This document shows positions 15,964 through 50,080 of a stretch of 64,000 nucleotides of DNA, piece by piece. Source of the DNA: Oceanidesulfovibrio indonesiensis (lineage in GTDB: Bacteria > Desulfobacterota > Desulfovibrionia > Desulfovibrionales > Desulfovibrionaceae); assembly GCF_007625075.1 (NCBI RefSeq), contig NZ_QMIE01000015.1:1-64000 (forward strand), read 5' to 3'. The notes under the pieces were generated by a model. It saw nothing but the letters and a program-made list of their open reading frames with translations, was not told the origin of the DNA and searched no databases. A program made the position numbers and the translations under genes. Each line of letters starts with the position of its first letter. Within the stretch, counting starts at the first letter, position 1.

Positions 15964-16488
15964 TCACGGGCGTAACCACTGGCCACTGGCGACTCTTTCC
16001 GCGTAAGGCGGGCATGGAATCCAATAGGTCCAGGCTGGAATCGAGGTGCGACCGCATAGCACCGCCACCATCACCCGCTGGTACATGCTGTGCCCGCCGG
16101 GCCGGAAGCCTTCCAGCCGGTCGATGGGCGGCAGGTCGCGTTGCGGGTCGGTGAAGGTCACCAGCTCTCCGTGGATCAGATTCCAGTCGCCGGTCGGGCG
16201 TCCGAAGCACGGCGTGCCGATCTCCTGCTGTCTGCGGGCGTCGGCCAATGGATCAACACTGCCCCGGGCCAGGATCAGGCCTTCCGGCACCTCGATGGCC
16301 GGGAACCCGGCGTGGAGATGGTAGAGCCTGCCCCAGACCACGGCCTGTTCGATGCTGCGGGCCTGGGCGCAGAAGCGCTGATGGTTCCAATAGCCCCGTT
16401 TCAGGGTGCCGTAGACGAAGAGCCGGAGGATGGTCTCGGGACTGTCTTCCGGATTTGTGTTCAGCTTTGATGGTTCTCCAATGTTCAT
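15964..16488 (-). CDS. Gamma-glutamylcyclotransferase (AIG2/GGCT fold)
   Basis: 174 residues. The fold signature FVYGTLKRGYWNHQRF is near residue 25, followed by WGRLYHLHAGFPAIEV and GELVTFTDPQRDLPPIDRLEGF, as in GGCT/AIG2 proteins. These enzymes release 5-oxoproline from gamma-glutamyl amides. Here it is the last gene of an amidoligase operon (ATGA overlap with the amidotransferase gene), where it is expected to undo or edit isopeptide-like gamma-glutamyl links. It is the leftmost gene of the phage block. Confidence 0.85.
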   Translation of the reverse strand: MNIGEPSKLNTNPEDSPETILRLFVYGTLKRGYWNHQRFCAQARSIEQAVVWGRLYHLHAGFPAIEVPEGLILARGSVDPLADARRQQEIGTPCFGRPTGDWNLIHGELVTFTDPQRDLPPIDRLEGFRPGGHSMYQRVMVAVLCGRTSIPAWTYWIPCPPYAERVASGQWLRP

Positions 16489-17799: not shown

Positions 17800-18756
17800 T
17801 TAAACAGTGAGGCCGGGAACTTGCCCGGCCTCGTTGGTGTGAGTGGTGGTTTCGTCCGGAAGGACCTCCTCCGGTTTAGGCCGTCCGTTCTTGAAGGCGG
17901 CGTCGCCGGGCATGTTGGCCATCAGATGCTTGCGGGCGGTCTTAAACTCGTCGCCGATCAGGCCGAGGTGGAGCAGGAAGACTCGAAAGTCGTACTTGGC
18001 GCTCTGGGGATCGAAGCCCCGCTTGCGGCTGGAGGCGGCCCGACCGTTGAGCGCCTTGGCGGCGACGGCGAGGCAGAACTGCAGGTAGGCCTTGATCCGT
18101 CCCGCGTGGAGGGTCGCCTCGAACCAGCGGAACTCCACCGTGCCCCGGTACCAGATGTTGTGCAGGTTGACCCCGTGGTAGCGGCTGTTGTCGTAGTGCT
18201 GGGGCTGGCGGTTGTGATAGCCGTACCAGATGCGGTTGAGCTGGTCCTTGGTGCGGGGGCGATGCTGTTCGATGCGCTGGATCAGCTCGTCGCTCACCGG
18301 CCGCGTGTAGCGGTTGAGCCGGTCGCGGCTGATGCCGAGGGCGTGGAGGATCAGCGGCTCCTGCTTGTAGATGATCTTGGCCAGGTTACCCAGGTGCCTG
18401 CCGTCGAAGGGCGCGGCGTCGATATGGATGTGGATGCCGCACTGGCTGTTGATCTTGCCTCCGGCGCGGCGGATGGCCCGGACCGCCTCCTGCAGTTGCG
18501 GGATGTCGTCGTAGCCGAGCACCGGGCTGACCACCTCGGCCCGCAGATGGGCCGGGACGCTGGTCAGGGAGGCGTCCCCCACCACCTTCCAGACGCGGCC
18601 GCGCAGGTCCTCGACCTCCCAGGGGTCATAGCTGCTGGGGATGCCGACATGGCGGACCGTGCCGCCCACCACCGAGTGGATGGCCCAGGCGATCTGTTCC
18701 CGGGTGCGTTTTACGGTCTCGATCTCGATCCCGTAGTGGATCTCTTTCAGGTTCAT
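17800..18756 (-). CDS. Amidoligase (COOH-NH2 ligase, PF12224-type)
   Basis: 318 residues from the ATG at 18756, chosen for its GACGGAGG ribosome site. It shows the family's catalytic landmarks: the early acidic motif YGIEIET, a [10 protein letters not shown] metal/substrate motif near residue 140, and the late [20 protein letters not shown] motif near residue 220. Amidoligases are glutamine-synthetase-fold enzymes predicted to join carboxyl and amino groups, making gamma-glutamyl or isopeptide links on peptides or small metabolites. First gene of a four-gene leftward operon with DUF5049-like, class II amidotransferase and GGCT genes. This combination was predicted by comparative genomics as a mobile-element modification system; I know of no experimental function. 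Confidence 0.88.
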
Positions 18757-18938
18757 GCGTGCCTCCGTCGTTCGTGGCGCTTCTAAGTCGTTGTCAGGCA
18801 AGGCTTTTTAGCCTCCGCTTACACCATGAATGCTTCTTTCCGGACACAAATCAAGTAGAAGAACAGCCGAAGCCGACATTTAACACGTTTATTTTCAATG
18901 ACTTGCGAACTAGGCCGGATTGGGCGGCGCACAGGCGG

Positions 18939-19271: not shown

Positions 19272-22200
19272 TTAGCTCAGGGTCGCGCCCAGCGAATGGA
19301 TGCGCGGGTAGATCAGCGGCGTGCCGGTCATCTCGGCTTTGTAGCGCACCTTGTTGCCGGTGTTGTCGGTGAAGGTGCGCACCAGGGTGTACTCGGTCCA
19401 GTTCTCGTCGATGGGCCGGGTGTCCTGGATGGTCATCGCCTCCCAGGTCAGGCCGCCGTCGTTGCTGGCGAACCATTGCAGGGTGGTGCCACTGGGGATC
19501 TGCATCTGCACATAGGCTTTGGTCGATTCCACACCCTGGGTCAGCTCGTTCTCGCGGGTCAGGTAGGCCCCGGTGGTCTTGTTGAGGTAGCCCACCAGGT
19601 TGACGTCGCGAAAGTTGATGGCCGGAGTGTCGTTGGAAAGCGAGCTGCTCAGGCGCACGCGGATCTGGACCCGGGTGGCGAGGTTGGGCAGCCGTTCCTC
19701 CTCGGCGGGAACCATGGCGTCCCAGGTCACGCCGCCGTCGGTGGAGTATTCCCAGTCGAGACCGGTACCCTGGGGGATGGCCGAGTATTCGTCGAGGTTG
19801 ATGTCGGAGAACTGCACGCCGGTGATCGGCTGAAAGCGAATCATCCCCTCGGACTGGAAGTTGTAGCCGTAGATCTTCATCGCCAGGTCGGAGCCGTTGA
19901 GCGGCGTCCAGGTCTCGGCGTTGGAGCTCTCCAGCAGCACGCCCTCCATGTAGGTCTGCCGGGTGATGATGCCCCAGCGGCCCATCTTGCCGAGGGTGGC
20001 GGTGCGGACCTTATAGTTGGTGCTGTTGGTCAGCAGCACCACGGCGTAGCTGGTGTTGGCCTCGGCGTAGAACGGGTCGTCGAAGCGAATGCGGGTCTCG
20101 CCGCTCAGGCTGATCTCGTTCGGGGCCAGCACCTTCTCGGCGAACACCACGCCGTTGGGCAGACCGGTGGTGACGCCGCGAATCTGCACCGTGACCGGAA
20201 TGCTCGGGTCCCTGGCGGTGAACTGCAGACCGATGCTGGAGATCACCTGGTTCTGGGTGAAGCTGAAGGTCTGGGCCAGCGGGTCGCGGGGCACGAAGAT
20301 GGTCTGAGTGCGCCAGACCACCTGCACCACGGGCACGCGAATGATGCGGTTCTCGATGATGCGCTCGATGCGGGTAATGACCAGCGGATCGTTGATCTGC
20401 AGGCTGGCCCGGGCCGAATAGACGCCGTCGGCCATCTCCACGATACGGTTGCCGTTGCGGGCGTTGGTCGGAATGGTGAAGGAGGCGCTGACCCGACCGG
20501 CCTCGTCGCTGATCAGGTTACTGGCCATTACCTGGCCGTCGCAGCGCAGCACGATGCCGGATTTGCTCGGGGTGAAGTTGATGCCGGTGACGGCGATGCC
20601 GGTCTGGCCGCGCCGCCCGAGGTTGGGCGTGATCTGCAGCATGGCCGGGGGCTTGTCGAACACCGCGTAGGGGTTGATGTTGCGCTCCTCGGACCAGTCG
20701 TTCTGTTCCACCAGCACGGTCTCGTTGCCCGGCAGCAGCGCCAGGCTGCCGAAGAAGCTCGCGCTGCTGCCCGCCTGATCGACCGAGAGCACCGTGGAGT
20801 GCGGAATGCGGTCCGGCGCGACGAAGCGGGCAATCTCGTTGACCCGGGCGTCCCATTCGGCGTGGTAGATGTCCGACTGGGCGGTGTTCGAGAAGTCGTC
20901 CGAGTAGATGCCTTTCTTGGTCTGGGCGTCCCGGTTCTGCAGCTCGTTGTTCATCTGGTACTGGGCGTCGTTGTACTTCAGGTCCTCGACGTCCTGGATG
21001 ATGTCGTGGATCTGGTCCATGGTGATGCGGGTCAGGCCGAAGTTGCGGATCTCCATGTCGGTGGAGTTGGGCGGGCAGTCGATGCTGCACAGCCCCAGGG
21101 CGTTTTCCGGCACGATGGGCAGCTTCGGGAAATCCGCCGGAGCCCCTTCCAGCCGCTTGATCTCGGTGGTGGTGGCGTTGCGGTCGTCGAGGGATTTCTG
21201 CAGTCGTTTGTAATCGGCGCTCTTGTCGGTCTTGCGGATGTAGGCGAGCTTTTCGAGGTACATCTGCTCCGCGTTTTCCGCCGTGGCCACCCGTGTGTCG
21301 ATGCCGAGCTGTTCGAGCTTTTCCAGCATCGCTTCGACCCGTCCTGGGGTGGCATCGCCATCCAGGATCATTTCCAGCTCGCCGCGTTGGGCATAGAGGT
21401 TGGTGTCCGACCAGGGACGATAGCGGACCCGGGTGCCGTCCTCGAAGGTGACGGTGTACTGGTGCCCGTCCTGCATGCGAGAGTTGTGATTGAACAGCGT
21501 CCGGTTGTCGATGTCGTCGGCCTCGACGGTGATGGTGCCGGAACCAATCCTGCGCTTGGTGTGAGTCACCTTGCCGCGTTCCACCTTGAACGGCGGTTTC
21601 TCCTTGGGTTTCTGCGCGTCGAGCTTGGGTAGGTACTGCTCGAAAACGCCGTTGGTGGCCCGGTCCCAGTCGACGGATTCTTCGATCTCCTTGACCCATT
21701 TCAGATAGTGGTCCGCCATCTCCTTGACCTTGGGGTCGGCGCTCTTTTGCAGGGTCTCCAGTTTCTTGCGCAGGCGCAGGGCCTTGTCGATCTTGGTCCG
21801 GTTGTACTTGCCGTCGCCCACGTGAAAGTTGACGTTTTTGACGGCGTCCAGAATCGTCGGAAAGAAGCTGTCTTCGACCAGCGGTTGTCCCTTTTCCCCG
21901 GCCGCCGTCTGCACATACCTGCGCAGCACCTCGTCGATGCGGCGGTCGGTGTCCGGCCGGATCTTCATCTTGACCACGGTGCGCTTCTTCCCCTTGAAAC
22001 TCTCGGTGAAGATCAGCGCGTTCTGGTCCTCCACGTCGCCGCTGTCGAAGGGCAGCGTCTTGCCTTGCCAGCCGAGTTTGCGGGCCTCCTCGACCAGGGT
22101 CTCTTCGGCGGAGGAGAGCAGCTTTTTCTTGCCGGTGGCGGTACTCAGCTTGTCGAAACGAAAGCCCCGATCCCCCAGCACATCGGCGTAATAGCCTTCG

Positions 22201-25001
22201 AAGTCTCGCCGGAGATTGTGTTTCCGCTCCAAGGCCAGATCATAGAAATGCCGCAGCCCGGCTGGGTCCTTGGAAAACCGTCCCTCCGCATAGGGCCGCA
22301 GCAGATCGAGGTAATCCTCGTCGGCGATCTTTTCGACTTCCTGGATGTAGCGAAGGGTCGCGTTCGGATCGACCCGTACCTTCCCTTCCTTGGCCGCCCG
22401 GAAGACCTTGTTGTAAAACGACTCTTCCTCGCCGCAGACGCCGTTGGGGTGATAGTCGAGCGAGAGCTTGTCCTGCCCCAGAAACTTGAAGGCCTGGCCT
22501 TTGTCGATGCCGTAGACGCGACCGTCCCGGGCGCGGATGAACTGCTTGGAATGTCCATCGTGGTTAGCGATCAGCCAGTCGACCACATGCTCGCGCTGGA
22601 TCTGCTCAAGTTCGATGGTGGTCAGATCCTGGGGCAGGATGTTGCGAAAATCGAAGTCGTCCCGCAGATCGGTGCGCCATTTCTGGATGGAGCCGGTGCG
22701 GCCATTCAACTGGATGGTGCGCACCTCGATGGAAAGGGGGTCAATCAGGCGACCGATCTTGTAGGCGGCTTCCTCTCCGAAGGCGATGAACTCATCGTCC
22801 TTGCGGCCAATGGGCTTGAACAGCCATTTGTCACCGTTCTCATCGGTCCAGAACTCCTTTTCATGTGCGCCGCCGACAGCGGCCTTGCCGGTTTTCTTGA
22901 ATTTTGACGGCAGACCTTTCTGCTGCCATGCGGTATCGACGGTGGTGAACTCCGCGCCTTTCTTGACGATCTTTGGCTCGGGCGGCTTGACCGGACTCGG
23001 TTGTGGAGCTGGTTTCGGCGTGGCTGGCTTGGCCGGTGCGGTTTTCTTCTTGCCGCCATGTTTTTCGGCCCAGGCGGCGTGCTTTGTGTCGATGCTGGCC
23101 TGAACCGCCTTGATTTTCGCGGGGTCGGTCTCGGTGAAGAGCGTGGTCAGCTCGTCTTTGTTGGCCCACTGCCAATACTGGACCTTGGTCTCCTTGGCGA
23201 GCGTCTTGAGCTCCGTCGATTTCAGCTTGCCGACCTGATCCTGGAAGAGCTGTTTCTTGAGGGCGATTTCCTTGCTGTGGGCCGCCAGCAGATCCTGGGG
23301 TAGATCGGTGCCAACGGAAACCGCCTGTTCCGCCTTGGCAATCGCGTCGAGGAAATCCTTGTAGCCGGTCGGCGTGTCGGGAACGACCACGGCCTTGGCG
23401 GCGTCTTCGAGAGCCGTTTTCTGTTTCAGGATCAGCTTTTGTTTGGCCTCGTCGACCGCCTTTTTCTTGACCGACTCGGCCATGTCGGCACCGGCCTTCT
23501 TCTGCAGCGCCTCGACGAGCTGCTGCTTGTTTTTGAGGATGCCGATGCCGTGCTTCTGTTTGGCCGCCGCGAGTTCCTTGCCCATCAGGCCGCTGTGATC
23601 CACGCCGGGCTCCAGCTTGTCGAGCAGCTCGATGGTCTCCTGTTTGGTCATATTGAGGGAGATGCCGTTCTCTTTCGCCATCTCCTTGAGCTGCTGGGCG
23701 GTCATGCCCTCCAGCCCCTCGGCGGGAGGGATCTTCGCCATCTGGGCGGCGAGCAGCTTGGCCTGTTTGAGTTCCGCCTGCTTCAGTCCGAGCAGATCGA
23801 CCAGTTCTTCCTTGGTCCGCAGCAGACCGATCTTGTGTTCCTTGAGCTTGGCGCTGAGCGCCGCTCCGGCCAGGTCGCCGTGATCGATCCCGGGTTCGGC
23901 CAGATCGAGCAGCTTGATGAAATCGGCCTTGGTCCGGGCGATGGCCACGCCGTTCTGTTTCGCCAGGGTCTGGAGCTGTTTGACCGTCAGCGAACCGAGG
24001 TCGGCGATGTCGCCGTTTTCAAAGGCGCTCTTGATCTTGGCGTTCTCCTTGGCCTGGGCGTCGGCCATGCCTTCCAGCACGTGGGGCGGGAGAATGCAGG
24101 CGTCCCCCTGCGATGCCTGGGCGGCTGCTTTGGCGGCCATCTCGCTACCGCAGACGGTCATCGGCCACGCCACGATATTGGTGCAGCGGCAGTGCGGATG
24201 CGCGGGTTGCTGGGGGAACTTGTCGATGGGAAAGGTCTTGCCGTCCAGCCCGCCGCAGACCGGGCACATGCGCTCGTCCTCCATGGCCAGCCATTCCAGC
24301 TTCTGGATGCCGACCCGCTCGTGGAACTTGAGCCTGCCCATGTTGTGGGCGCGGAGGACCTCGGTGCGGGCGATCATCTCCATGCGGTACTGAGCCTTGC
24401 TGAACACCCGGCTTCCGGCCTGGCGAAAGGAGTCCTTGTCGATGATCACCTTGCCCATGTCCCGGACGATGTCGTCGGCTCCCTTGCCCGTGGCGACGCC
24501 GTTCAGGATGGTGCGCTTGATGCCGTCTGCGAGTTCTCGGTGGACGTCACCGGCGAGCGTGAGGTTGTACTGCGCCATGAAGTCGAGGGCATTGGTGTCG
24601 ACGATGGTGAACACCTTGGTGGCCAGCTTGTCGATGCCCTCGGGCTTCAGGTCGGCGTAGAACGGCAGCGCCGCGTCGGCGAGCTCTCCGATTCCCTGCT
24701 GGATACCGAGCTTGAAGGAGTCCTTGGTCGTCTTGCGAAAGACCAGGGTCTGCTCCCGCTTGAGCCGCTTCATGGTGTCGTCGAGTTCGAGCTGGAGCTT
24801 TTCCAGCCCCTTGAGGGCGGCGAGCTTGTTGTCCGGCAGGGAGCCGAGGGAGCGGTACTGGAGGATGGCGCGGGCGACCTCGTCTTCGGCCTGTTTCAGG
24901 GCCTGGGTGAGCTGGGCCGTGACCTGGTCGTTGTAGCGGTTGCGGGCCGTCAGACTCTTCAGTGTGGCCGCCTGGATGCGCTGCTTGAGGTCCGACGGCA
25001 T
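19272..25001 (-). CDS. Giant fusion: Mu F-like head protein, SAP-like repeats, HipA-like kinase domain, DUF4815 tail segment
   Basis: One uninterrupted frame of 1909 residues. Residues ~1-280 form a Mu gpF/SPP1 gp7-type head morphogenesis domain ending in a metal-binding-like cluster (CPVCGGLDGKTF ... HPHCRC). Residues ~330-505 hold repeated SAP-like helical motifs (SLTVKQLQTLAKQNGV, GMTAQQLKEMAKENGI). Residues ~690-950 form a protein-kinase-like domain of the HipA/FAM20 sort (DWLIANHDGHSKQFI, GIDKGQAFKF), plausible as a MuF-linked effector. From about residue 1288 the protein is the C-terminal half of a DUF4815-type phage tail protein (PADFPKLPIVPENAL, YNDAQYQMNNEL, YTLVRTFTDNTG). The N-terminal half of that tail protein is absent. 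The gene directly follows the portal gene (1 base shared). The joining of head and tail proteins looks like an in-frame deletion or an assembly collapse. Confidence 0.8.
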   Translation of the reverse strand: MPSDLKQRIQAATLKSLTARNRYNDQVTAQLTQALKQAEDEVARAILQYRSLGSLPDNKLAALKGLEKLQLELDDTMKRLKREQTLVFRKTTKDSFKLGIQQGIGELADAALPFYADLKPEGIDKLATKVFTIVDTNALDFMAQYNLTLAGDVHRELADGIKRTILNGVATGKGADDIVRDMGKVIIDKDSFRQAGSRVFSKAQYRMEMIARTEVLRAHNMGRLKFHERVGIQKLEWLAMEDERMCPVCGGLDGKTFPIDKFPQQPAHPHCRCTNIVAWPMTVCGSEMAAKAAAQASQGDACILPPHVLEGMADAQAKENAKIKSAFENGDIADLGSLTVKQLQTLAKQNGVAIARTKADFIKLLDLAEPGIDHGDLAGAALSAKLKEHKIGLLRTKEELVDLLGLKQAELKQAKLLAAQMAKIPPAEGLEGMTAQQLKEMAKENGISLNMTKQETIELLDKLEPGVDHSGLMGKELAAAKQKHGIGILKNKQQLVEALQKKAGADMAESVKKKAVDEAKQKLILKQKTALEDAAKAVVVPDTPTGYKDFLDAIAKAEQAVSVGTDLPQDLLAAHSKEIALKKQLFQDQVGKLKSTELKTLAKETKVQYWQWANKDELTTLFTETDPAKIKAVQASIDTKHAAWAEKHGGKKKTAPAKPATPKPAPQPSPVKPPEPKIVKKGAEFTTVDTAWQQKGLPSKFKKTGKAAVGGAHEKEFWTDENGDKWLFKPIGRKDDEFIAFGEEAAYKIGRLIDPLSIEVRTIQLNGRTGSIQKWRTDLRDDFDFRNILPQDLTTIELEQIQREHVVDWLIANHDGHSKQFIRARDGRVYGIDKGQAFKFLGQDKLSLDYHPNGVCGEEESFYNKVFRAAKEGKVRVDPNATLRYIQEVEKIADEDYLDLLRPYAEGRFSKDPAGLRHFYDLALERKHNLRRDFEGYYADVLGDRGFRFDKLSTATGKKKLLSSAEETLVEEARKLGWQGKTLPFDSGDVEDQNALIFTESFKGKKRTVVKMKIRPDTDRRIDEVLRRYVQTAAGEKGQPLVEDSFFPTILDAVKNVNFHVGDGKYNRTKIDKALRLRKKLETLQKSADPKVKEMADHYLKWVKEIEESVDWDRATNGVFEQYLPKLDAQKPKEKPPFKVERGKVTHTKRRIGSGTITVEADDIDNRTLFNHNSRMQDGHQYTVTFEDGTRVRYRPWSDTNLYAQRGELEMILDGDATPGRVEAMLEKLEQLGIDTRVATAENAEQMYLEKLAYIRKTDKSADYKRLQKSLDDRNATTTEIKRLEGAPADFPKLPIVPENALGLCSIDCPPNSTDMEIRNFGLTRITMDQIHDIIQDVEDLKYNDAQYQMNNELQNRDAQTKKGIYSDDFSNTAQSDIYHAEWDARVNEIARFVAPDRIPHSTVLSVDQAGSSASFFGSLALLPGNETVLVEQNDWSEERNINPYAVFDKPPAMLQITPNLGRRGQTGIAVTGINFTPSKSGIVLRCDGQVMASNLISDEAGRVSASFTIPTNARNGNRIVEMADGVYSARASLQINDPLVITRIERIIENRIIRVPVVQVVWRTQTIFVPRDPLAQTFSFTQNQVISSIGLQFTARDPSIPVTVQIRGVTTGLPNGVVFAEKVLAPNEISLSGETRIRFDDPFYAEANTSYAVVLLTNSTNYKVRTATLGKMGRWGIITRQTYMEGVLLESSNAETWTPLNGSDLAMKIYGYNFQSEGMIRFQPITGVQFSDINLDEYSAIPQGTGLDWEYSTDGGVTWDAMVPAEEERLPNLATRVQIRVRLSSSLSNDTPAINFRDVNLVGYLNKTTGAYLTRENELTQGVESTKAYVQMQIPSGTTLQWFASNDGGLTWEAMTIQDTRPIDENWTEYTLVRTFTDNTGNKVRYKAEMTGTPLIYPRIHSLGATLS

Positions 25002-26583: not shown

Positions 26584-26614
26584 TTACTTACCGGAGCGGG
26601 GTGGAAAGCGTCGG
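26584..26614 (-). promoter_or_regulatory. Phage promoter-like motif, copy A (before portal)
   Basis: Read on the minus strand: CCGAC (26614-26610), 12 unconserved bases, then GCTCCGGTAAGTAA (26597-26584). Four copies in the phage block keep the 12-base gap exactly. This copy lies between the terminase large subunit stop and the portal start, 75 bases before the proposed GTG start. Confidence 0.7.
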
Positions 26615-30981: not shown

Positions 30982-31482
30982 TTATCCGCAATTCTTTCCG
31001 CGTTTCTTGCGGCCGGAGGTTTTCGTGGCCGGAGCATTGGCGGCCTCAGCCACCTTCTCGAGCAGAGCCGCCGCCCATTCCGCCGGAGAGGTCTGGGGAC
31101 CTTGCGGCTCCTCACCCTCGCGGGCGATCTTGGTGGTCTTGAGATCCTTCATATGGCAGCGGATCATCCGGTCGAGGCTCTCGGCCGCTTGGGTGTTCCC
31201 TTCGATCTGGGCACGGACCAGCTTGACGGAGTAGACGCCCACCAGTTCGACCTGAAGGAAGTCACTGGACTTGTTGAACACGAAGTCCTGGTTGAGGCGC
31301 TCGATGATCACGTCGAACATGACCTTCTCTTCCGGGGTCAGGCAGCGGTCGGCGAAGATGCCGTGCGTAAGCCGATACTGGTTGCCCTCGGGTGCTCCGG
31401 CCCCGCGCTTGGGCGGTTCGGTCTTGCCCTCGTTGCGATGCCAACGGTCCAGAATAGCTTTGTCGGGCTTGCTCAAAGGCAT
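30982..31482 (-). CDS. Terminase small subunit-like phage protein
   Basis: 166 residues with a basic, flexible N-terminus (GAGAPEGNQYRLTHGIFADR), which is common in small terminase-type proteins, then a helical core (EEKVMFDVIIERLNQDFVFN, SLDRMIRCHMKDLKTTKIAR) and a Lys-rich tail. TerS proteins bind the packaging site and load TerL. It follows the HTH gene at 31573 and its promoter-like motif, and lies upstream of TerL with the recombinase module in between. Assignment is from composition and context. Confidence 0.6.
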   Translation of the reverse strand: MPLSKPDKAILDRWHRNEGKTEPPKRGAGAPEGNQYRLTHGIFADRCLTPEEKVMFDVIIERLNQDFVFNKSSDFLQVELVGVYSVKLVRAQIEGNTQAAESLDRMIRCHMKDLKTTKIAREGEEPQGPQTSPAEWAAALLEKVAEAANAPATKTSGRKKRGKNCG

Positions 31483-31854: not shown

Positions 31855-32628
31855 TCAATCCTCCACTTTCTTCATCCACGGCTGCGGCACCTCCGGGTTG
31901 TAGAATCGCAGCGTGCTGGGACGCCCGGACTTCGGCCCGTGGATAATTTCGATAGAACGCTCGGTGACCTCGCCAATCTCCTGATCGCCATCGACGAAAC
32001 AGACCAGGCCGTAGTCCTCGCCGCAGGGAAACCGAAACCGGCCCTGGTTCTGATAGAGGCGTGCCTCGGACCAACCCTTGGCCATGGCCTCCTCACGGAT
32101 GGTGTCGACCTTGGCGACAGCCTGGGAAGTCACCGGCTGCCTATGGCGTCCGGCTGCGTGTTGAGGGTAAATCCAGACCTTTCTGGGAACTTCGACGGGT
32201 TTCTTCTGGGGTTCGGGACGAAGCGCGGGTGGCCGGTAGTTCTTCGGGGAAAAGGACTGCAGTACATCCTGGAGGCTTTCCTTGCCGAACTCCCGGATGG
32301 CCAGCTCCTGCAGGGCGTTGAATCGCTGCCGCAGCGTGTTCCAGGCAGCCTCGGGGAGCTTTCCGGCCTTGTGCGCGGCTTGGGCGGTGACCATGCGGGA
32401 ACGTAGCCAGGCGAAGTATTCAGGCGACAGACGGCGGAACACTTTGCCGTCGCGCTCGAAGTCAGTCTCTTTGGTTCGAACCCAGGCGAGTTCTTTGATT
32501 TCAAGATCTGTGGCGACGAAGACCACATGGCAGGATTCTGGTGACGAAAGGATGTCTGGGCTTGTTCGATTTGCGGATTGGGCGGCATCCGTGCAGAGGT
32601 GACGGATCATGGTGGTCAACAGGCTCAT
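31855..32628 (-). CDS. Phage protein of unknown function
   Basis: 257 residues, start ATG at 32628 with GGAG before it. Middle segment FRRLSPEYFAWLRSRMVTAQ and AAWNTLRQRFNALQELAIRE is helical; the C-terminal part (EEAMAKGWSEARLYQNQGRF, GLVCFVDGDQEIGEVTERSI) looks like a small alpha/beta domain. I do not recognise a family, though similar proteins occur near primase and terminase genes in mobile elements. Motif copy C lies 39 bases upstream. Confidence 0.7.
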   Translation of the reverse strand: MSLLTTMIRHLCTDAAQSANRTSPDILSSPESCHVVFVATDLEIKELAWVRTKETDFERDGKVFRRLSPEYFAWLRSRMVTAQAAHKAGKLPEAAWNTLRQRFNALQELAIREFGKESLQDVLQSFSPKNYRPPALRPEPQKKPVEVPRKVWIYPQHAAGRHRQPVTSQAVAKVDTIREEAMAKGWSEARLYQNQGRFRFPCGEDYGLVCFVDGDQEIGEVTERSIEIIHGPKSGRPSTLRFYNPEVPQPWMKKVED

Positions 32629-32666
32629 GGTAAATCTCCGGAAACGTTGGTAGTCATCGTTTCCCG

Positions 32667-32697
32667 TTACTTACCGGAGCCTGACCATGGGTGTCGG
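32667..32697 (-). promoter_or_regulatory. Phage promoter-like motif, copy C
   Basis: Minus strand: CCGAC (32697-32693), 12 bases, GCTCCGGTAAGTAA (32680-32667). It lies between the iteron cluster and the gene starting at 32628. Confidence 0.7.
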
Positions 32698-32700
32698 ATA

Positions 32701-33020
32701 GCCGAAAGCGCCGAAAGGGGTTTCGGCGCTCGACGACCTTTCGGCATCCCCTTTCGGCATCACTAAACAATAGAAGTATCAGTTAGTTATATATATTTTT
32801 CCGAAAGAGTAGAAAGATATGAGAATATTACTCTCGCATGGGCCAAAATTTTCTATACCCTGTTCCGAGAGGAGTATTGAAAAAAATACAAAGGAGGGGG
32901 AGTAATCTCTGAAACCTTTCGGCACTTTCGGCGCTTGCATCACAAATCCAACAAAAACATATAGTTGCACTGCCGAAAGGTACCCTTGGGACTTTCGGCA
33001 ATGCCGAAACCCCTTTCGGT
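32701..33020. repeat. Iteron-like cluster, candidate replication origin
   Basis: Eight exact copies of GCCGAAAG or its complement CTTTCGGC start at 32701, 32710, 32738, 32751, 32916, 32925, 32972 and 32992. Four one-mismatch copies start at 32720, 32810, 33003 and 33013. They form two dense groups flanking a strongly AT-rich 150-base core (about 32760-32910, with TTAGTTATATATATTTTT). Several copies are paired head-to-tail at 9 or 13 bases, others are inverted. The cluster sits in a gene-free stretch just beyond the primase-helicase gene, as expected for a phage or plasmid origin with iterons and an unwinding element. Which protein binds is unknown. Confidence 0.7.
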
Positions 33021-33115: not shown

Positions 33116-33156
33116 AACAAGAAAAGCCCGCAGAAATGAATCCACGGGCCGGGCTT
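33116..33156 (-). terminator. Terminator after the primase-helicase gene
   Basis: AAGCCCG (33124-33130) pairs with CGGGCTT (33150-33156). Read leftward the stem is followed by TTTTCTTGTTT. It lies 25-65 bases past the leftmost end of the neighbouring iteron region's gene border and would block transcription entering from the right, downstream of the primase stop at 33181. Confidence 0.6.
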
Positions 33157-33180: not shown

Positions 33181-36100
33181 CTATTTTGCTGATTGAATCG
33201 TATAGAGTTTGGTTCCGCGATGGTTCTGCCCTATTTCAATCTCGAACCCTGCCCCCCGGATGGTCTCCAGATCATTCACCAGCCGCTGTGCGAATTGCCG
33301 GGATGAGTCCATCTCGAAACGCAGACCGAAATCCCGAGCAACTCGCTTGAGGGCCACGAACAGGTCCCGGGAAAGAACCTCCCGCAAACTTCCATCGTCT
33401 TCAAAGCGGATCTGATACCGTTGGACGAACTCCTGAAGAGGGTCCGTCCGGCGGTCTCCGTAAACATCCCGCGCATTGGTTTCGGTCGCGGTGCGCCACG
33501 CGTTGAACAAGGTCGCCAGCGCCGTCGCCGTATGATTTGAATCCCGGGCCGTATCCCGGCTGGTCCGGTTGAGCGACTCGATCTGCCGGGCGAATGCCGG
33601 TGCCAGCTCTCCCAACCCCTGTTCCATCTCTTCACGGCTCGATCCGGCCAGCATCATCAGGTACATCAAGCTGAGATATTCGTTGCAGCGGCGCTTGTCG
33701 TGGCTCCCCAGTGCCTCGTGCAAAAGCTTCATGGCATGGCGTCTCATGCCGTCTCGCATCATCGCCAGCACCACCCGGGTCCGCTTAATGATGGCCGAAA
33801 TGATGAGGTCGCGATGCTGCTGGATGCCTGCGACGACCTCGGATTCGATGAAACAGTCATTGCCCTGGTTGGCGACATCGAAGTTGATCACAAAACTGCG
33901 TGATTGGATCTCCGAAAGCTCCCCGCACAGCGGCTCGATGCCGGTGGTGTTCAGCAGGCATTTGGTCCGCTCGGTGATGGTCTCGCTGTCTGTGCCGCTC
34001 TTGCGTTTCTCCTTGGCGATGCCGGTGATGCTGGTCAGCATGAAGGTGGTCAGATCCTCGGTCATCTGCTTGACCTCGATGTTGTCGAGGACGATGAGCG
34101 GGTTCTGCGAGCCATCGGTGTAGTTCGCCGCGTCGGTGGCTTTCTTGTGCTGGGGCTCGCCGTAAAGCAGCGTCGACGTGATCTTGCTGGCGGTGGTCTT
34201 GCCCGATCCGGCCGAACCCTCGAAGCGGGTCATGGGCCGCGTCCCGGCGAAGTCGATCAGCAGGAAACAGGAGAGCCAGGAAAGGATGAGAAATCGATCC
34301 CCCTGCGGACAGGTCATATTGCCCACCAGCAGATCGACCAGGAGCCGGTCCGCCTCTTCGAGGTCGGCGTCGGGCAGGAATTTCAGCGGCTTCATCTTGC
34401 GCGAGCCGTCCAGGATGATGCCGTCCTCGTTGCCGCCGTTCTTCATGATCTGAATCTCGTCCGGGGTGATCTTGGCGATCTCGTGCTCCGGATTGTTCAG
34501 GTTGAAATAGACGGTGTAGGAGGCCACATCGGTGTGCAGCCAGGAAAAATGGTCGCGCACCTGGCCACGGATCATCGCCAGGCTGGGCAGTACCTCGAAA
34601 AATGTCCGTCCGCCGCCCGTGGTCGGCACCATGCCCGTATGCTTATAGAGCATGGCCGCGTAATGGCGCTTGCGGCCCCGGTCCGGTGAATCCATCCAAT
34701 AGATGGCGTTGTCGAAATACATGAACGGCTCGCCCGGCAGGGTGTGAAAGAACTGGGCACCGTTGGAGGTGAACCAGTCGTAGGCGGCCTCGGCGGCCAG
34801 GGTGTAGTCGGGAGCGCCGTTCTCCAGTTCCGTGTCGATCAGCACCTCGTCAACCCGGGCGCGGCATGATCCGGGCATCGCGCCGGACATCCGCTTGGCC
34901 TTTTTCTTTTCGTTGCGGAACTCGACCTTTCGGTCCTTCTGGATGGCGCGGATTTGTTCCTTCAGGGTGGCCATGGAGACGCCACCACCGATGCGCTCCT
35001 GCACCAGCTTCAGCAGACGGGCCTGTTCCAGCGGAGACTGCTCGGAAATCTCCCCCAGGATCGGCTCGAGCAGGCGGTTGCGTTCCTCCTCTTCAGCGCC
35101 CTCGGGCAGCGAGCGCACGCCGAATTCGATGGGCGTGCTGGCCTCGGCGAGCAGACGTTCGAAATCCTCCCGGGTATGCCCGGCGGCAATGTAATCGTTG
35201 ACGTCGATCTTTGCGGTGGCGAGAAGCGCCTCGGCCGCCTGGATTTCCTCGGCGGGCCGTCCAGCCAGCAGCTTGGCCAATTCCTTCGGCCCCACGCTCG
35301 CCATCAGGCCGAAGCGTTCGGTCAGCTCCTGCCGGGCCGAGATCTGTGTCTCCGACAAGGGCAGCGTCACCAGGCGGGTGTCGATTTTGTGTTCGGCCAG
35401 GGTGCGGGCGGTTTGCAGCGCCCCCTTGAGACCGGCTTGGGAAAGTTCGTTGTCCTGACAGATGTAGACGGTTTCGACGCCGCGCAGCTTGGGGATCAGG
35501 CGCTCCCAATCGGCGGCCCGGATGCGGACGGTGACCGGCGATACGGTGGGCAGGCCCAGTTGCATCAGCGCCAGGCAATCGGTCACCCCCTCGGTGATGA
35601 TCACCTTGCCGGGCCGGGCCAGCAGACAGTCCTCGTTGAACAGCAGCGCGTTGTTGATGAAGTCGGCGACGTAGGGCCGCTGGTGTTCGTCGTGAACCGG
35701 CAGTTTCTTGTATTTCCCTTGCTCCCAGCCCACGTCCGGGGTCCACGGCGTCTTGCGGCCGATCATGAACACCACCCGGCCACGGCTCCAGTAGGGAAAG
35801 ACGATCCGGCGCTCGAAAAATGGCGTCAGGCCGTCCTGGCTGGTGGGACGGAAAGCGCCGGTGGCGGCGAGCTCCCGCTTGGAGAAACCGTCCTCACCCC
35901 CGGTCAGTTGGACGACCGCGCCGGATGCGTTGTCCGCGTAGCCGATCAGGAGATCGTCGATGATCTCCTCGCTCAGGGCGTATTTGGATTTCAGCCAGTC
36001 GAGGACCTCCGGAGACTCCTTGAGTCTGGCGTGGTAAAGCCTGGCCAGCGAGGTCAGCGCGTCCTTGACCCGCAGTTCGAAGGCGCGGTCGGCCTCCGTC

Positions 36101-36483
36101 TGGGCGAGACGCTCCTGGCTGAGGCCATAGCGCGACAGCGGCGGCAAGCCCGCCTTCTTGGCGAGATAGTCCCGGGCCTGACGGTGGCTGTCCGGCATCG
36201 GACCGGATTGCCCGGCGGTGACCGAGCCCGTCTGAATGAACTCCACGAGCTGCAGCACATCGCCGCCGACTCCGCAGCCGAAGCAGTACCAGCCCTGCTT
36301 GTCGAGCATCACGTGCAGCGACAGGCGCGACTGACTTTGATGGTTGGGGCAGTCGCACATCAAGCGCTGGCCGGTCTCCTGGGTGATCCGTCCCGGCAGG
36401 AGTTCCCGGGCCACGTCACCGATGTCCATCTCGGTGACGAGCCGGTAATACTCCCTGACGTTATCCGTTCCGCCCATACTCAT
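33181..36483 (-). CDS. Phage primase-helicase (CHC2 zinc finger, Toprim, P-loop ATPase)
   Basis: 1100 residues. Residues ~40-75 carry a DnaG-type zinc ribbon (CDCPNH ... CFGCGVGGD). Residues ~290-400 form a Toprim domain with the EGVTD glutamate and a following acidic motif (VYICQDNEL). A C-terminal ATPase begins with Walker A GSAGSGKTTASK near residue 760 and continues with ALIVLDNIEV-like Walker B (NPLIVLDNIEV). The protein should synthesise primers and unwind DNA for phage replication. It overlaps the RecD2-like gene by 4 bases and is the last gene of the leftward replication operon, next to the iteron cluster. Confidence 0.9.
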   Translation of the reverse strand: MSMGGTDNVREYYRLVTEMDIGDVARELLPGRITQETGQRLMCDCPNHQSQSRLSLHVMLDKQGWYCFGCGVGGDVLQLVEFIQTGSVTAGQSGPMPDSHRQARDYLAKKAGLPPLSRYGLSQERLAQTEADRAFELRVKDALTSLARLYHARLKESPEVLDWLKSKYALSEEIIDDLLIGYADNASGAVVQLTGGEDGFSKRELAATGAFRPTSQDGLTPFFERRIVFPYWSRGRVVFMIGRKTPWTPDVGWEQGKYKKLPVHDEHQRPYVADFINNALLFNEDCLLARPGKVIITEGVTDCLALMQLGLPTVSPVTVRIRAADWERLIPKLRGVETVYICQDNELSQAGLKGALQTARTLAEHKIDTRLVTLPLSETQISARQELTERFGLMASVGPKELAKLLAGRPAEEIQAAEALLATAKIDVNDYIAAGHTREDFERLLAEASTPIEFGVRSLPEGAEEEERNRLLEPILGEISEQSPLEQARLLKLVQERIGGGVSMATLKEQIRAIQKDRKVEFRNEKKKAKRMSGAMPGSCRARVDEVLIDTELENGAPDYTLAAEAAYDWFTSNGAQFFHTLPGEPFMYFDNAIYWMDSPDRGRKRHYAAMLYKHTGMVPTTGGGRTFFEVLPSLAMIRGQVRDHFSWLHTDVASYTVYFNLNNPEHEIAKITPDEIQIMKNGGNEDGIILDGSRKMKPLKFLPDADLEEADRLLVDLLVGNMTCPQGDRFLILSWLSCFLLIDFAGTRPMTRFEGSAGSGKTTASKITSTLLYGEPQHKKATDAANYTDGSQNPLIVLDNIEVKQMTEDLTTFMLTSITGIAKEKRKSGTDSETITERTKCLLNTTGIEPLCGELSEIQSRSFVINFDVANQGNDCFIESEVVAGIQQHRDLIISAIIKRTRVVLAMMRDGMRRHAMKLLHEALGSHDKRRCNEYLSLMYLMMLAGSSREEMEQGLGELAPAFARQIESLNRTSRDTARDSNHTATALATLFNAWRTATETNARDVYGDRRTDPLQEFVQRYQIRFEDDGSLREVLSRDLFVALKRVARDFGLRFEMDSSRQFAQRLVNDLETIRGAGFEIEIGQNHRGTKLYTIQSAK

Positions 36484-41877: not shown

Positions 41878-42462
41878 TCACAGGTAGTCGGTCAGGCCAG
41901 CCTCGCTGAACGCGTCCCGCAGCTTGCTCAGCCGCTCGTAGAGGGTGGTTCTGGGAATGCCTATCTCTCGGGCGACTTCGGCCATGGTGCTGTCGTGCAG
42001 GCGCACGCACAGATCCCGGAGCTCTTCCGGCAGCGAGGCGATGGCCCGGTCGAGATCCATGCGGATCTCATGGGCGAGGCGCTCCCTTGTCTCGCGGGTG
42101 CCGCTTCCCAGAGAGCCTTCGCTGTCCAGGAAGTCGATCCGCTCGGTGGTGTCGCCTTCACCGTTGTCGAGGGGTTCGTTGAGCGAGGTTTGGCAGAGCC
42201 GCCAGTCCCGGCATTGGGCGAACCGGGCCTCCAGAATGGTGGAGATGTGACGTTCGACGATCCGGGCCATGAAGGTGGTCTTCTTGGCCTTTGCGGGATT
42301 GAAATGCCGCATCCGCTGCAGCAGATCGATCATCAGTTCCTGTTCGAGGTCGGGTCTGTCGTCCTCGGTGAATCCGGCCTTGCCTACGAGTTGACGTGCT
42401 TTGTGCCGAATGAGGTCGGCGGCATACTTGTCGATGCCGTCGTAAGAATTCTGAGAAACCAT
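41878..42462 (-). CDS. Phage sigma-70 family RNA polymerase sigma factor
   Basis: 194 residues. The N-terminal part fits sigma region 2 (DLIRHKARQLVGKAG, DRPDLEQELMIDLLQRMRHF, KKTTFMARIVERHISTIL). The C-terminal part fits region 4 (LDRAIASLPEELRDLCVRLH, MAEVAREIGIPRTTLYERLS), with an acidic linker between. Such phage-encoded sigma factors switch host polymerase to phage promoters. It is followed immediately by promoter-like motif D, and three more copies lie in front of other phage transcription units, making it the natural candidate to read them. HTH in region 4 is clear; specificity is inference. Confidence 0.85.
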   Translation of the reverse strand: MVSQNSYDGIDKYAADLIRHKARQLVGKAGFTEDDRPDLEQELMIDLLQRMRHFNPAKAKKTTFMARIVERHISTILEARFAQCRDWRLCQTSLNEPLDNGEGDTTERIDFLDSEGSLGSGTRETRERLAHEIRMDLDRAIASLPEELRDLCVRLHDSTMAEVAREIGIPRTTLYERLSKLRDAFSEAGLTDYL

Positions 42463-45576: not shown

Positions 45577-46200
45577 TTAACTCCGTTTCCATCCAACGAC
45601 CTTGCCTAAAACTCGAAGGTCATCCTCCGGCCTGATCCGGATCTTTCTTACCTCCGGGTTCTCTGGCACCAATTCGATGAGCTCGTCTTTGATTTTCAGC
45701 CGTTTGACGGTCGCCTCGTTGTTGAGCAGCGCTACAACGATGTCACCATCCTCGGCGATGGGCTGCTGCCGCACGATGATCAAATCGCCATCGTTGATAC
45801 CGGCACCGATCATGCTGTCACCCACCGCACGGAGTGCGAAGTGCTGTCCGGAACGAACGACGTCCGACTCGACCAGCACTTGGCCGGTGATGTTCTCCTC
45901 GGCCAGGATGGGACGGCCAGCCGCCACCATCCCCACAACAGGTACTGAAACCAGAGAGGCAGCCATCTCGCTGGGGCGACGGGCAACAGCTATGCCTCGC
46001 GACTTCCCGTCCTCCCGCTTCAGGTATCCCTTGCGCACCAGTTGGTTGATCCGGTCGTGGGCACTCGCCGGGCTGATTTCAAAGATCTCGCTCAGTTCCT
46101 TCACCGTTGGAGGAAAGCCCTTGGCATCGACGAAACGACATATCGCTTCGAGCGTTTTCCGCTGCAACGGCGTTATCTCATCCGTTTTCGCTTTGCCCAT
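45577..46200 (-). CDS. LexA-like / S24 family repressor
   Basis: 207 residues from the ATG at 46200. The N-terminal winged helix matches LexA (ITPLQRKTLEAICRFVDAKG, FPPTVKELSEIFEISPASAH). The C-terminal peptidase has the Ala-Gly cleavage site (VGMVAAGRP), the catalytic Ser in GDSMIGAGI and Lys in ATVKRLK. On DNA damage such proteins cleave themselves and release their operators. It probably controls lysogeny or its own operon. The palindromic operator lies about 65 bases upstream. Confidence 0.92.
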   Translation of the reverse strand: MGKAKTDEITPLQRKTLEAICRFVDAKGFPPTVKELSEIFEISPASAHDRINQLVRKGYLKREDGKSRGIAVARRPSEMAASLVSVPVVGMVAAGRPILAEENITGQVLVESDVVRSGQHFALRAVGDSMIGAGINDGDLIIVRQQPIAEDGDIVVALLNNEATVKRLKIKDELIELVPENPEVRKIRIRPEDDLRVLGKVVGWKRS

Positions 46201-46263
46201 GGCGTCTCCATTTCTGTTGAAAGACAAAAAGGCGCAATGCGCCAGCAAACCCTAATAATATAA

Positions 46264-46778: not shown

Positions 46779-47303
46779 ATGAATGAGTTACAGAACGCCG
46801 CCACGGGCGGCAAGAATCAGGACCGAACCCGAAACTCGGTTCTTCGGCAGATGGCCCTGCTGCAATCCATGTCCCTGGAGCAGCTCCGGGAAAAATGGCT
46901 CGACCTCTACGGCGAAGAGCCGCCCCAGTACAAAAAGCAATTCCTCATCAAGCGGCTGGCTTATCGCATCCAGGAGCTTTTCTACGGCGGGCTGTCCGAG
47001 CAGGCCAAGGTCCATCTCCAGCAGGCCGCCAAGGAGGACCCGGTAGCCACTGTCAATCGACGCATCCCAGAAGAGCGGAAATCGAACGAGGCGCTCCTGC
47101 CCGGGACCAGACTGGTGCGGGTCTGGAACGACCGGCGCTATGAGGTGATCGTCCTTGCCGATGGCTATGAGTTCGAAGGCCGCACCTTCCGGTCGCTCAG
47201 CGCGGTGGCCAGGGAGATCACCGGGACGCGCTGGAACGGCAAGGTCTTTTTCGGGCTGAAGAAGGTTTACGGCAGAAAAGCCGAGGGAGGTTCGGATGCT
47301 TGA
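46779..47303 (+). CDS. DUF2924 family protein
   Basis: 174 residues from the ATG at 46779 (ribosome site AAGGAG). Typical DUF2924 blocks: LREKWLDLYGEEPPQYKKQF, LIKRLAYRIQELFYGGLSEQ, LLPGTRLVRVWNDRRYEVIV and FRSLSAVAREITGTRWNGKV. The C-terminal part is a small DNA-interaction-like domain. The family nearly always precedes a large serine recombinase, as here (8-base overlap), and may act as a recombination accessory factor. Confidence 0.9.
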   Translation: MNELQNAATGGKNQDRTRNSVLRQMALLQSMSLEQLREKWLDLYGEEPPQYKKQFLIKRLAYRIQELFYGGLSEQAKVHLQQAAKEDPVATVNRRIPEERKSNEALLPGTRLVRVWNDRRYEVIVLADGYEFEGRTFRSLSAVAREITGTRWNGKVFFGLKKVYGRKAEGGSDA

Positions 47304-48882
47304 TAACAGCAATGTCGCGCCGGGCAAGAACAAGACCCTGCGCTGTGCCATCTACACCCGCAAGAGCCACGAGGAAGGTCTCGAACAGGAGTTCAACTCG
47401 TTGGATGCCCAACGGGAATCGGCGGAACACTATATCGAAGCTCAGAGGATGCGGGGCTGGACGGCTCTGCCGGATCGCTATGACGATGGTGGTTTCTCGG
47501 GCGGGAACATGGAGCGTCCGGGGCTGCGCCGCCTGCTGGCGGACATCGACGCCGGGAAGATCGATGTGATCGTCGTCTACAAGGTCGACCGGCTGTCCCG
47601 CTCGCTGCTGGACTTCATGAAGATGATCGACCTCTTCAACGAGAAGGGTGTCAGCTTCGTCTCGGTCACCCAGCACTTCAGCACCACCGATCCCACCGGC
47701 CGAATGTTTCTCGGTATCCTGATCACCTTCGCCCAGTACGAGCGGGAGGTCATCGCCGAACGCATCCGGGACAAGGTGGCGGCAGCCAAGCGCCGGGGGA
47801 AATACTGCGGCGGCGTACCCATCCTCGGATACGACGTCGACAGGGACAACAAGAAGCTGCTGGTCAACCCAGATGAAGCCAGGACGGTGCAGTACATCTT
47901 CCGCCGCTTCATCCAGATCGGCTCGGCCAAGAAGCTGGGCCAGGAATTGAACGAACAGGGATACCGCACCAAGGCCTGGACCACCAAGAAAGGCAAGGTG
48001 CGTGAGGGCTCCGAATGGAACACCGCCCACATCTACCGGCTGCTCAATAACCGGATCTATATCGGCGAGATCGCCCACAAGGACCGCAGCTACCCCGGTG
48101 AGCACGAAGGGATCATCGACCGGGCGACCTGGGACAAGGTTCAGGCCATCCTGGAGGACAACAAACCGGTCAAGGTTTCCATGGCCAGAACCAAAATGGT
48201 CGCCCCACTGAAAGGCGTCATTCGCTGCGGCCACTGCGGATGCGCGATGGGACCGACCTACGCCCGCAAGAACGGCCGCCACTACACCTATTACATCTGC
48301 CAGAAGGACAGCAAGCGGACCTTGAGCCGGTGTCCGCTCAAACGGATTCCCGCCGGGGACATCGAGCAGGCGGTGATCGAGCAGTTGAGCGCGGTGTTCC
48401 GCACACCGACGCTGGTGGCCAAAACCTACTTCGCGGCCCGGGACATCGAGCAGGTGGAGCGGGAGCGGCTGTTCAAGCAGAAAGCCCAACTCGAGATGGA
48501 GCTGTCGCAGGCGCGGGAGCAGGCACTCGAACTGATGAAGCCCGGCAGCGATCAGCCGGGCAAGGCAGAGATGCTGACGACCGTCAACCGCCAGGCGGTC
48601 GAGCTCTCGAAACAACTGACGCACGTGAGCGAGCGATGCAGAGCCTACCGGGGGAACAGCATCACGGAACAGGATGTATCGGAGGCCTTCCAGAATGTCG
48701 AAGGCTTCTGGGAAGACCTTTTCCCGGTGGAGCGAAACCGGCTCATCCGCCTCCTGGTGGATAAGGTCGAGATCCGCGAGACCGGGATCGACATGGAGCT
48801 GCGCACCAACGGGCTGACAACGCTCATCGCCGAGCTGGCCGGTCTGGCATGCGAAGTCACCGAACGGAGGGCAAGCCGATGA
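47296..48882 (+). CDS. Large serine recombinase
   Basis: 528 residues. Resolvase domain with the nucleophile Ser in CAIYTRKSHEEG, DAQRESAEHYI, VYKVDRLSRSLLDFM and FGMFLGI-type segment (GRMFLGILITFAQYEREVIA). Then the recombinase domain (LNNRIYIGEIAHKDRSYPGE), a zinc ribbon (IRCGHCGCAMGP ... YYICQKDS ... CPLKRIP) and a coiled coil. It should integrate or excise an element by double-strand cleavage and rotation. It lies 840 bases from the 3' end of the tmRNA gene. Confidence 0.95.
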   Translation: MLDNSNVAPGKNKTLRCAIYTRKSHEEGLEQEFNSLDAQRESAEHYIEAQRMRGWTALPDRYDDGGFSGGNMERPGLRRLLADIDAGKIDVIVVYKVDRLSRSLLDFMKMIDLFNEKGVSFVSVTQHFSTTDPTGRMFLGILITFAQYEREVIAERIRDKVAAAKRRGKYCGGVPILGYDVDRDNKKLLVNPDEARTVQYIFRRFIQIGSAKKLGQELNEQGYRTKAWTTKKGKVREGSEWNTAHIYRLLNNRIYIGEIAHKDRSYPGEHEGIIDRATWDKVQAILEDNKPVKVSMARTKMVAPLKGVIRCGHCGCAMGPTYARKNGRHYTYYICQKDSKRTLSRCPLKRIPAGDIEQAVIEQLSAVFRTPTLVAKTYFAARDIEQVERERLFKQKAQLEMELSQAREQALELMKPGSDQPGKAEMLTTVNRQAVELSKQLTHVSERCRAYRGNSITEQDVSEAFQNVEGFWEDLFPVERNRLIRLLVDKVEIRETGIDMELRTNGLTTLIAELAGLACEVTERRASR

Positions 48883-49720: not shown

Positions 49721-50080
49721 TGGTGGAGGCGGGGGGAGTCGAACCCCCGTCCGAGAATGTTCCACAGTGAGCGTCTACAGGTATAGTCCGTGGTTTGGTC
49801 TCATCGCGGCGGCGCCCACGAACAGGCTCCATCCGCGACCAGTTTGCCAAAGTGTCTCACCCCCGCCGTGGCGAACGCCGGCGGGAGCCAGCCCGATAAG
49901 GGTGTCATTCCGAATGCGTATCAGGCGTCAGCTTCCGGAATGTGGCAGCGTTAGTTACGCAGCCAGAGCGTAATCGTAGTCGTTGTTGGCAACTATCGGT
50001 TTGCCGCTTTTTTACGAGGCCAGCGGCGCCTCGACCTGCAACTCCTGCTTCCGCATCCCCGTCGAAACCAGTGCGCCCCC
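49721..50080 (-). ncRNA. ssrA: tmRNA
   Basis: Transfer-messenger RNA of about 360 nt that rescues stalled ribosomes. The 5' end GGGGGCGCACTGGTTTCGAC and 3' end TTCGACTCCCCCCGCCTCCA(CCA) form the tRNA-like acceptor and T-arm. The resume frame at 49990-49955 encodes the tag ANNDYDYALAA followed by TAA, the type known from Desulfovibrio. The mature 3' CCA is encoded. The gene reads leftward towards the phage-derived block, whose recombinase cassette ends 420 bases away. Confidence 0.97.

Follow-up and report, generated by a model that had tools for sequence, protein, structure and literature searches.

Phage initiators of the lambda O type act on iterons beside an AT-rich region. In P4, the alpha protein binds the origin repeats with a winged helix, after which it unwinds and primes (PMC4234260). 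The array that lies just past the alpha terminator in the P4 record (NC_001609) consists of ten 8-mers in both orientations, with pairs at 9-bp steps; this array, 3' of alpha, is annotated as crr, and the annotated ori is 4.5 kb away. In PICI origins, two iteron sets enclose an AT-rich stretch directly 3' of the initiator gene, a layout that the authors found in no other known bacterial replicon (PMC6092414). The Rep protein of SaPI recognises its origin through its C-terminal domain, and the primases of SaPIbov1 and SaPI5 are of the archaeo-eukaryotic type (PMC7581432). In the Vibrio cholerae PLE, RepA and ori vary together, and there have been several swaps of specificity (PMC8263062); this initiator is a RepA_N protein without predicted helicase or primase (PMC7145576).

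We describe here a 320-bp region of a 64-kb window (the whole stretch of DNA analysed) that quite likely serves a temperate tailed phage as its replication origin, through binding of its iterons by the C-terminal winged helix of the neighbouring primase-helicase. The array lies between the primase-helicase gene, from whose stop codon it is separated by 160 bp, and a conserved gene that we call orfA. Boxes below are given with their orientation.

30982-31482: orfC, TerS-like, with a weak phrog_1889 match; 1.2 kb from the array
31855-32628, minus strand: orfA, 257 aa, conserved neighbour on the array's other flank; no Pfam or PHROGs family
~32666-32698, minus strand: phage-type bipartite promoter-like element TCCGAC-N15-CCGGTAAGTAAC, a conserved motif between the array and orfA
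32701-32758, no strand: iteron group A, on the orfA side, with GCCGAAAG at 32701+, 32710+, 32720- (one mismatch), 32738- and 32751-
32759-32915, no strand: AT-rich core, candidate unwinding region, 26-46% GC in 50-bp steps; near-box at 32800+ (one mismatch)
32916-33020, no strand: iteron group B, on the primase side, with boxes at 32916-, 32925-, 32972+, 32992-, 33003+ (one mismatch) and 33013- (one mismatch)
33125-33150, minus strand: intrinsic terminator-like hairpin directly past the primase-helicase gene; 1 found, 1.0 expected by chance
33181-36483, minus strand: primase-helicase, 1100 aa, proposed initiator; CHC2 Zn ribbon, DnaG-type core, Toprim, P-loop helicase (Walker A GSAGSGKTT) and C-terminal winged helix

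All eight exact copies of GCCGAAAG/CTTTCGGC and all four near-exact ones that the original prediction had placed in 32701-33020 were located, the latter each with one mismatch, and the box pairs lie at steps of 9, 13 and 9 bases, where 9 or 13 had been claimed. The two groups and the AT-rich core between them are also present as described, except that one near-exact copy (32800) falls inside the core. GC content is 26% at 32751-32800 and 38-42% at 32801-32900, against a window mean of 58.7%. The density of 8-mers is indeed far beyond chance: in the 552-bp intergenic stretch, 5000 dinucleotide shuffles never gave more than 4 copies of an 8-mer, and the rest of the window contains at most 3 copies of any 8-mer per 552 bp, so that it holds one array only. 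The 4.29-Mb genome contains 282 copies of GCCGAAAG, one every ~15 kb on average (a control with the reversed pattern gives 339), and the sole occurrence of the paired 17-bp form, GCCGAAAGNGCCGAAAG, is the array. Equal box density elsewhere on the chromosome, which had been named as an argument against an origin, is therefore not found. There is no DnaA box (TTWTNCACA) in the whole 64 kb, and the array region has no Rfam match to a structured RNA. GC skew has no inflection at the array; it tracks gene content and is uninformative as an origin marker.

The terminator and promoter-like motif that had been reported beside the array have counterparts in the minus-strand hairpin that follows the primase gene and in the element at 32666-32698, but a search for sigma-70 promoters found none. 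The hairpin is plausible as a terminator because of its position, not its count. The promoter-like element reads away from the array, with a gap of 2-3 bp to the array end. Copies of TCCGAC-N15-CCGGTAAGTAAC occur on the minus strand of the window at 26584, 31573, 32667 and 41844, and in relatives (in L033, for example, at 4630, 15598, 16692 and 21633); they are strongly conserved, syntenic, always oriented along transcription and a short distance upstream of genes. From this pattern, the motif is probably a promoter for the phage-encoded sigma factor (41878-42462).

The array is carried by a prophage (~15900-49700) in which nearly all genes are on the minus strand. A large serine integrase gene (47296-48882) adjoins the tmRNA gene (49721-50080), and regulators include a LexA-like repressor (45577-46248), the sigma factor and HTH genes. 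The replication/recombination operon encodes a PD-(D/E)XK nuclease, a Sak4-like annealing protein, a DUF669 protein, an ERCC4 nuclease, a RecD-like helicase and the primase-helicase, and is followed by terminase, portal and head genes. Among the latter, a 1909-aa fused protein (19272-25001, minus) begins like a minor head or head-morphogenesis protein and continues with large domains of unknown function (phrog_6577, phrog_877); amidoligase and gamma-glutamyl-cyclotransferase-like genes (17800-18801 and 15964-16488, minus) lie beside the head genes. Left of ~15.9 kb the genes are host-like (AcrB and HlyD family efflux). No tail genes were found in this prophage copy before those efflux genes, implying that it is probably truncated on its left side, and no convincing pair of att repeats was found at its ends. 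Related virus records (54-133 kb) mostly encode a tape-measure protein (8 of 10), from which we conclude that the family as a whole consists of tailed phages.

The primase half of the proposed initiator matches the profiles Zn_ribbon_DnaG (1e-8), DNAG_N (7e-8) and Toprim_2 (5e-4), and aligns with solved DnaG primases. No close relative of the protein was found in INPHARED phage records. An AlphaFold2 model of residues 978-1100 is a winged helix (pLDDT 88.8, pTM 0.83), with the following parts.

33184-33552, minus strand: C-terminal winged-helix domain, residues 978-1100, proposed to bind the origin from the AlphaFold2 model and its covariation with box spelling
33274-33303, minus strand: recognition helix, residues 1061-1070, predicted by AlphaFold2
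33190-33246, minus strand: predicted wing hairpin, residues 1080-1098, with strands 1080-1086 and 1092-1098 and loop NHRGT at 1087-1091

A fold search with this domain returned weak, generic winged-helix matches only, none convincing (Z 4-5); many replication initiators are among them, including RepE54 with iteron DNA, RepA and Orc1/Cdc6.

Close relatives of the primase-helicase (54-99% identity) occur in virus contigs and also in genomes and bins of Desulfobacterota, Acidobacteria, Kiritimatiellales, Pontiellaceae and others; hosts in culture with an intact relative include Desulfofustis glycolicus and Desulfatitalea alkaliphila. All 53 loci that were readable from the primase gene through to orfA (duplicates and near-duplicates included, thus not all independent) have an array of ~310 bp in which one 8-mer recurs in 5-13 exact copies. 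The array usually lies directly upstream of orfA, even where up to ~3 kb of cargo genes separate it from the primase gene. Such cargo is seen in many relatives (L033, L035, L009, L036 and L018, for example) and includes a Fic protein, an AAA_21 and RloB pair, an ABC ATPase and an NgoFVII-like PLD nuclease; by its gene content, this interval looks like a defence-gene hotspot beside the putative origin. A detectable array is missing in three relatives, the divergent L063 (54%) and L117 (43%), and L056, whose frame is broken.

The spelling of the boxes changes from lineage to lineage: GCCGAAAG, ACCGAAAG, GTAGAAAG, TGCGGTGG, TGCGAAGG, GGTGAAAG, TGCGGAGG, GGCGGGTG and TGAGAAGG, with TGGGAAGG in one partial locus and ACTTCTGC in one distant locus. 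Their geometry hardly changes. Relative to the start of orfA, the window boxes are at -392, -382, -371, -351, -304, -295, -179, -130, -117, -99, -89 and -80, and those of the GTAGAAAG class at -393, -383, -372, -352, -305, -296, -189, -180, -130, -117, -99, -89 and -80. Orientations are the same in these two classes and follow a similar pattern in the others, and most relatives have an AT-rich peak at the matching position. Near-identical positions with different letters imply that a set of ~12 sites has been respelled as a whole, which is hard to explain other than by a sequence-specific protein that binds all the boxes and changes with them.

Across 1225 pairs of loci, which are related and partly redundant, so that these AUCs and the p-values below express association and are not corrected for phylogeny, pair identity predicted a shared box with an AUC of 0.992 for the winged helix (residues 1041-1100), 0.976 for residues 870-1040, 0.913 for residues 1-850, 0.882 for orfB (an HTH gene) and 0.879 for orfA. 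Closely related pairs point to the same part of the protein. L046 and L054 have no differences in residues 870-1075 and 18 in the wing and tail (p 1e-22), and their boxes are GGTGAAAG and TGAGAAGG; L018 and L019, with GCCGAAAG and ACCGAAAG, have 19 differences in the wing and tail, where they are densest (p 4e-22). L033 and L034 are ~97% identical, their wings reading KRY and NHR (p 1e-7) and their boxes GTAGAAAG and GCCGAAAG; the more distant L008 group also pairs a KRY wing with GTAGAAAG. In control pairs with the same box (n = 163), 156 of 4933 differences are in the wing. On the AlphaFold2 model, the covarying residues map to the wing loop 1087-1091 and its flanks. The recognition helix reads PAQLGRRI or PAQLGKRI with TGCGGTGG and GGCGGGTG boxes, which have a different 3' half, and has a QFAQR form in the GAAAG/GAAGG classes, so it differs too. 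Finally, in class-3 phages, those with TGCGGTGG boxes, identity to the window protein is mostly 94-100% for residues 1-850 but 34-64% for residues 901-1100; by this comparison, the C-terminal part and the array have been replaced jointly. In these alignments, the protein that covaries with box spelling is the primase-helicase, via its C-terminal winged helix and above all the wing. The original prediction had seen no obvious DnaA-type initiator and hence expected a new binding protein; that expectation is not upheld, since the primase-helicase itself covaries with the boxes and the kind is known from satellites. We found no description of this box-protein covariation in phages in the open-access literature.

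In distant loci, the same primase half is fused to three other helicases: a VapE type (PF05272), a GSGKG P-loop type and one labelled FtsK-like solely on its motif. Of these 40 loci, 37 have five or more copies of one 8-mer arrayed at the gene's 3' end; the best 8-mer cluster elsewhere in the same related loci mostly has 3-4 copies. In the VapE and FtsK-like relatives, 0-46 bp lie between stop codon and array. Most GSGKG-type loci have an array that overlaps the end of the coding region and is therefore translated into a low-complexity tail of the protein; loci with such overlap are among L124, L125, L130, L144, L149-L155, L158, L159 and L166. Within the VapE group, the first wing strand again goes with the box, RFNA with TGGAAC, RFKC or RFRI with TGGGAC, and QYKA or MYKA with GGTCCACG. 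L142/L160 and L145 share identical wings and have two spellings, GGTGCACG and GGTTCACG, implying that this wing-box code is imperfect or incomplete.

The best reading of the array is a replication origin or cis-acting replication region. This suggestion, already made in the original prediction, gains from the position 3' of the primase-helicase in all relatives read as far as orfA, from the hairpin and promoter-like flanks, from the two iteron groups with their AT-rich core, and from a layout that matches PICI origins (PMC6092414) and the annotated P4 crr. The winged helix of the primase-helicase would bind the boxes, as the covariation suggests; the direct and inverted 8-mer pairs may seat initiator multimers on both sides of the AT-rich core, which the helicase would melt, and the fused primase could then start synthesis at the array.

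Because the P4 array 3' of alpha is crr, and the annotated ori is elsewhere, the window array might instead be a crr-like accessory or control element, bound by the primase-helicase and needed in cis or for copy-number control, with synthesis starting at another site. We consider this improbable: there is a single array in the window, clusters elsewhere in related loci are usually small, and, like PICI origins (PMC6092414), the array contains an AT-rich core of its own, with an iteron group on either side. Upstream control of the orfA promoter, in which a regulator on the boxes would switch on late genes, could account for the 2-3 bp between the array end and the promoter-like element, and the phage has sigma factor and HTH genes. 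Against it, the other three copies of the element in the window have no array, arrays occur at loci without a detected orfA homologue (L122, L161 and L162), one helicase type has its array inside the 3' end of the gene, and orfB is 98% identical between L033 and L034 despite their different boxes, which also makes orfB an unlikely determinant of spelling. This role is therefore very unlikely.

We give less credence still to orfA as the box-binding protein. It nearly always adjoins the array and also covaries with it, but its AUC is no better than that of the primase body; since orfA in L018 and L020 is 23-34% identical to that of the window while the boxes are the same, and no homologue is detected at some arrays, it is unlikely to be the sole determinant. 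That the small terminase binds the array as a packaging (pac/cos) site is equally hard to credit: the TerS-like orfC is near enough to invite the idea, but in L033, L035 and L041 it is 90-92% identical to the window copy and the boxes differ. Considered as binders, orfB, orfC and the other replication genes were rejected, being nearly unchanged between phages with different boxes.

If the array is an origin, a broader picture can be drawn, towards which we lean slightly. These phages may constitute a large group of replicons that recognise themselves and have not been described before. A single primase would be joined to any of four or more interchangeable helicases, every helicase bringing its own DNA-binding domain at the C-terminus, and in nearly all cases the gene's 3' end would carry an iteron array of ~300 bp. 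A few wing residues would set the box, so that origin specificity could be exchanged in nature and read from sequence, possibly evading incompatibility or origin-targeting defences. The ~20 box spellings on a similar scaffold, with their matching proteins, are a natural data set on how wing specificity changes, and the origins of uncultured phages would become predictable from sequence. That all boxes change at once raises the question of the driver, be it incompatibility, co-infection or origin-cutting nucleases such as Odn (PMC8263062).

How does this system relate to those already described? P4 alpha, with the type 1 repeats of crr and ori (NC_001609), is likewise a primase-helicase in one chain with a C-terminal DNA-binding winged helix; both systems have an N-terminal Zn-binding and Toprim DnaG-like primase, and in both an array of 8-mers closely follows the gene, beyond a terminator or terminator-like hairpin. 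P4 alone needs a helper and has two array regions, and its box letters, GGTGAACA, are unlike those of the window. The helicase domains D5_N and DUF5906, found in P4 alpha at 5e-12 and 2.5e-9, have no match at E<=1 in the window protein, L041 or L047; Pox_D5 matches the P4 C-terminal domain at 9e-18 and not the window domain. Profile comparison of the window C-terminal domain with the P4 alpha origin-binding domain found no homology (hhalign probability 0.6), and the P4 domain is absent from the fold-search list, where all matches were weak. The window system thus works like P4 but is not a member of its family by the features tested.

As in PICI and SaPI, two iteron sets surround an AT-rich region directly 3' of the proposed initiator gene. 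The window primase is of DnaG type, unlike those of SaPIbov1 and SaPI5; moreover, PICI and SaPI are helper-dependent satellites with an incomplete virion gene set, whereas the relatives here are full tailed phages and the window has portal and terminase genes. The PLE ori has three ~30-bp iterons instead of 8-mers. Unlike those of lambda O, the window iterons lie outside the gene, and the proposed initiator is itself primase and helicase; unlike DnaA-dependent iteron plasmid origins, the window lacks DnaA boxes. The general kind is therefore already known from P4 and the PICI/SaPI satellites, and initiator-origin covariation and swapping from PLEs (PMC8263062). What sets the window system apart is its occurrence in large tailed-phage genomes and a helicase and DNA-binding domain for which no relation to those of P4 alpha is detectable; a layout that was described for satellites alone (PMC6092414) is thereby extended to large tailed phages of Desulfobacterota and other phyla.
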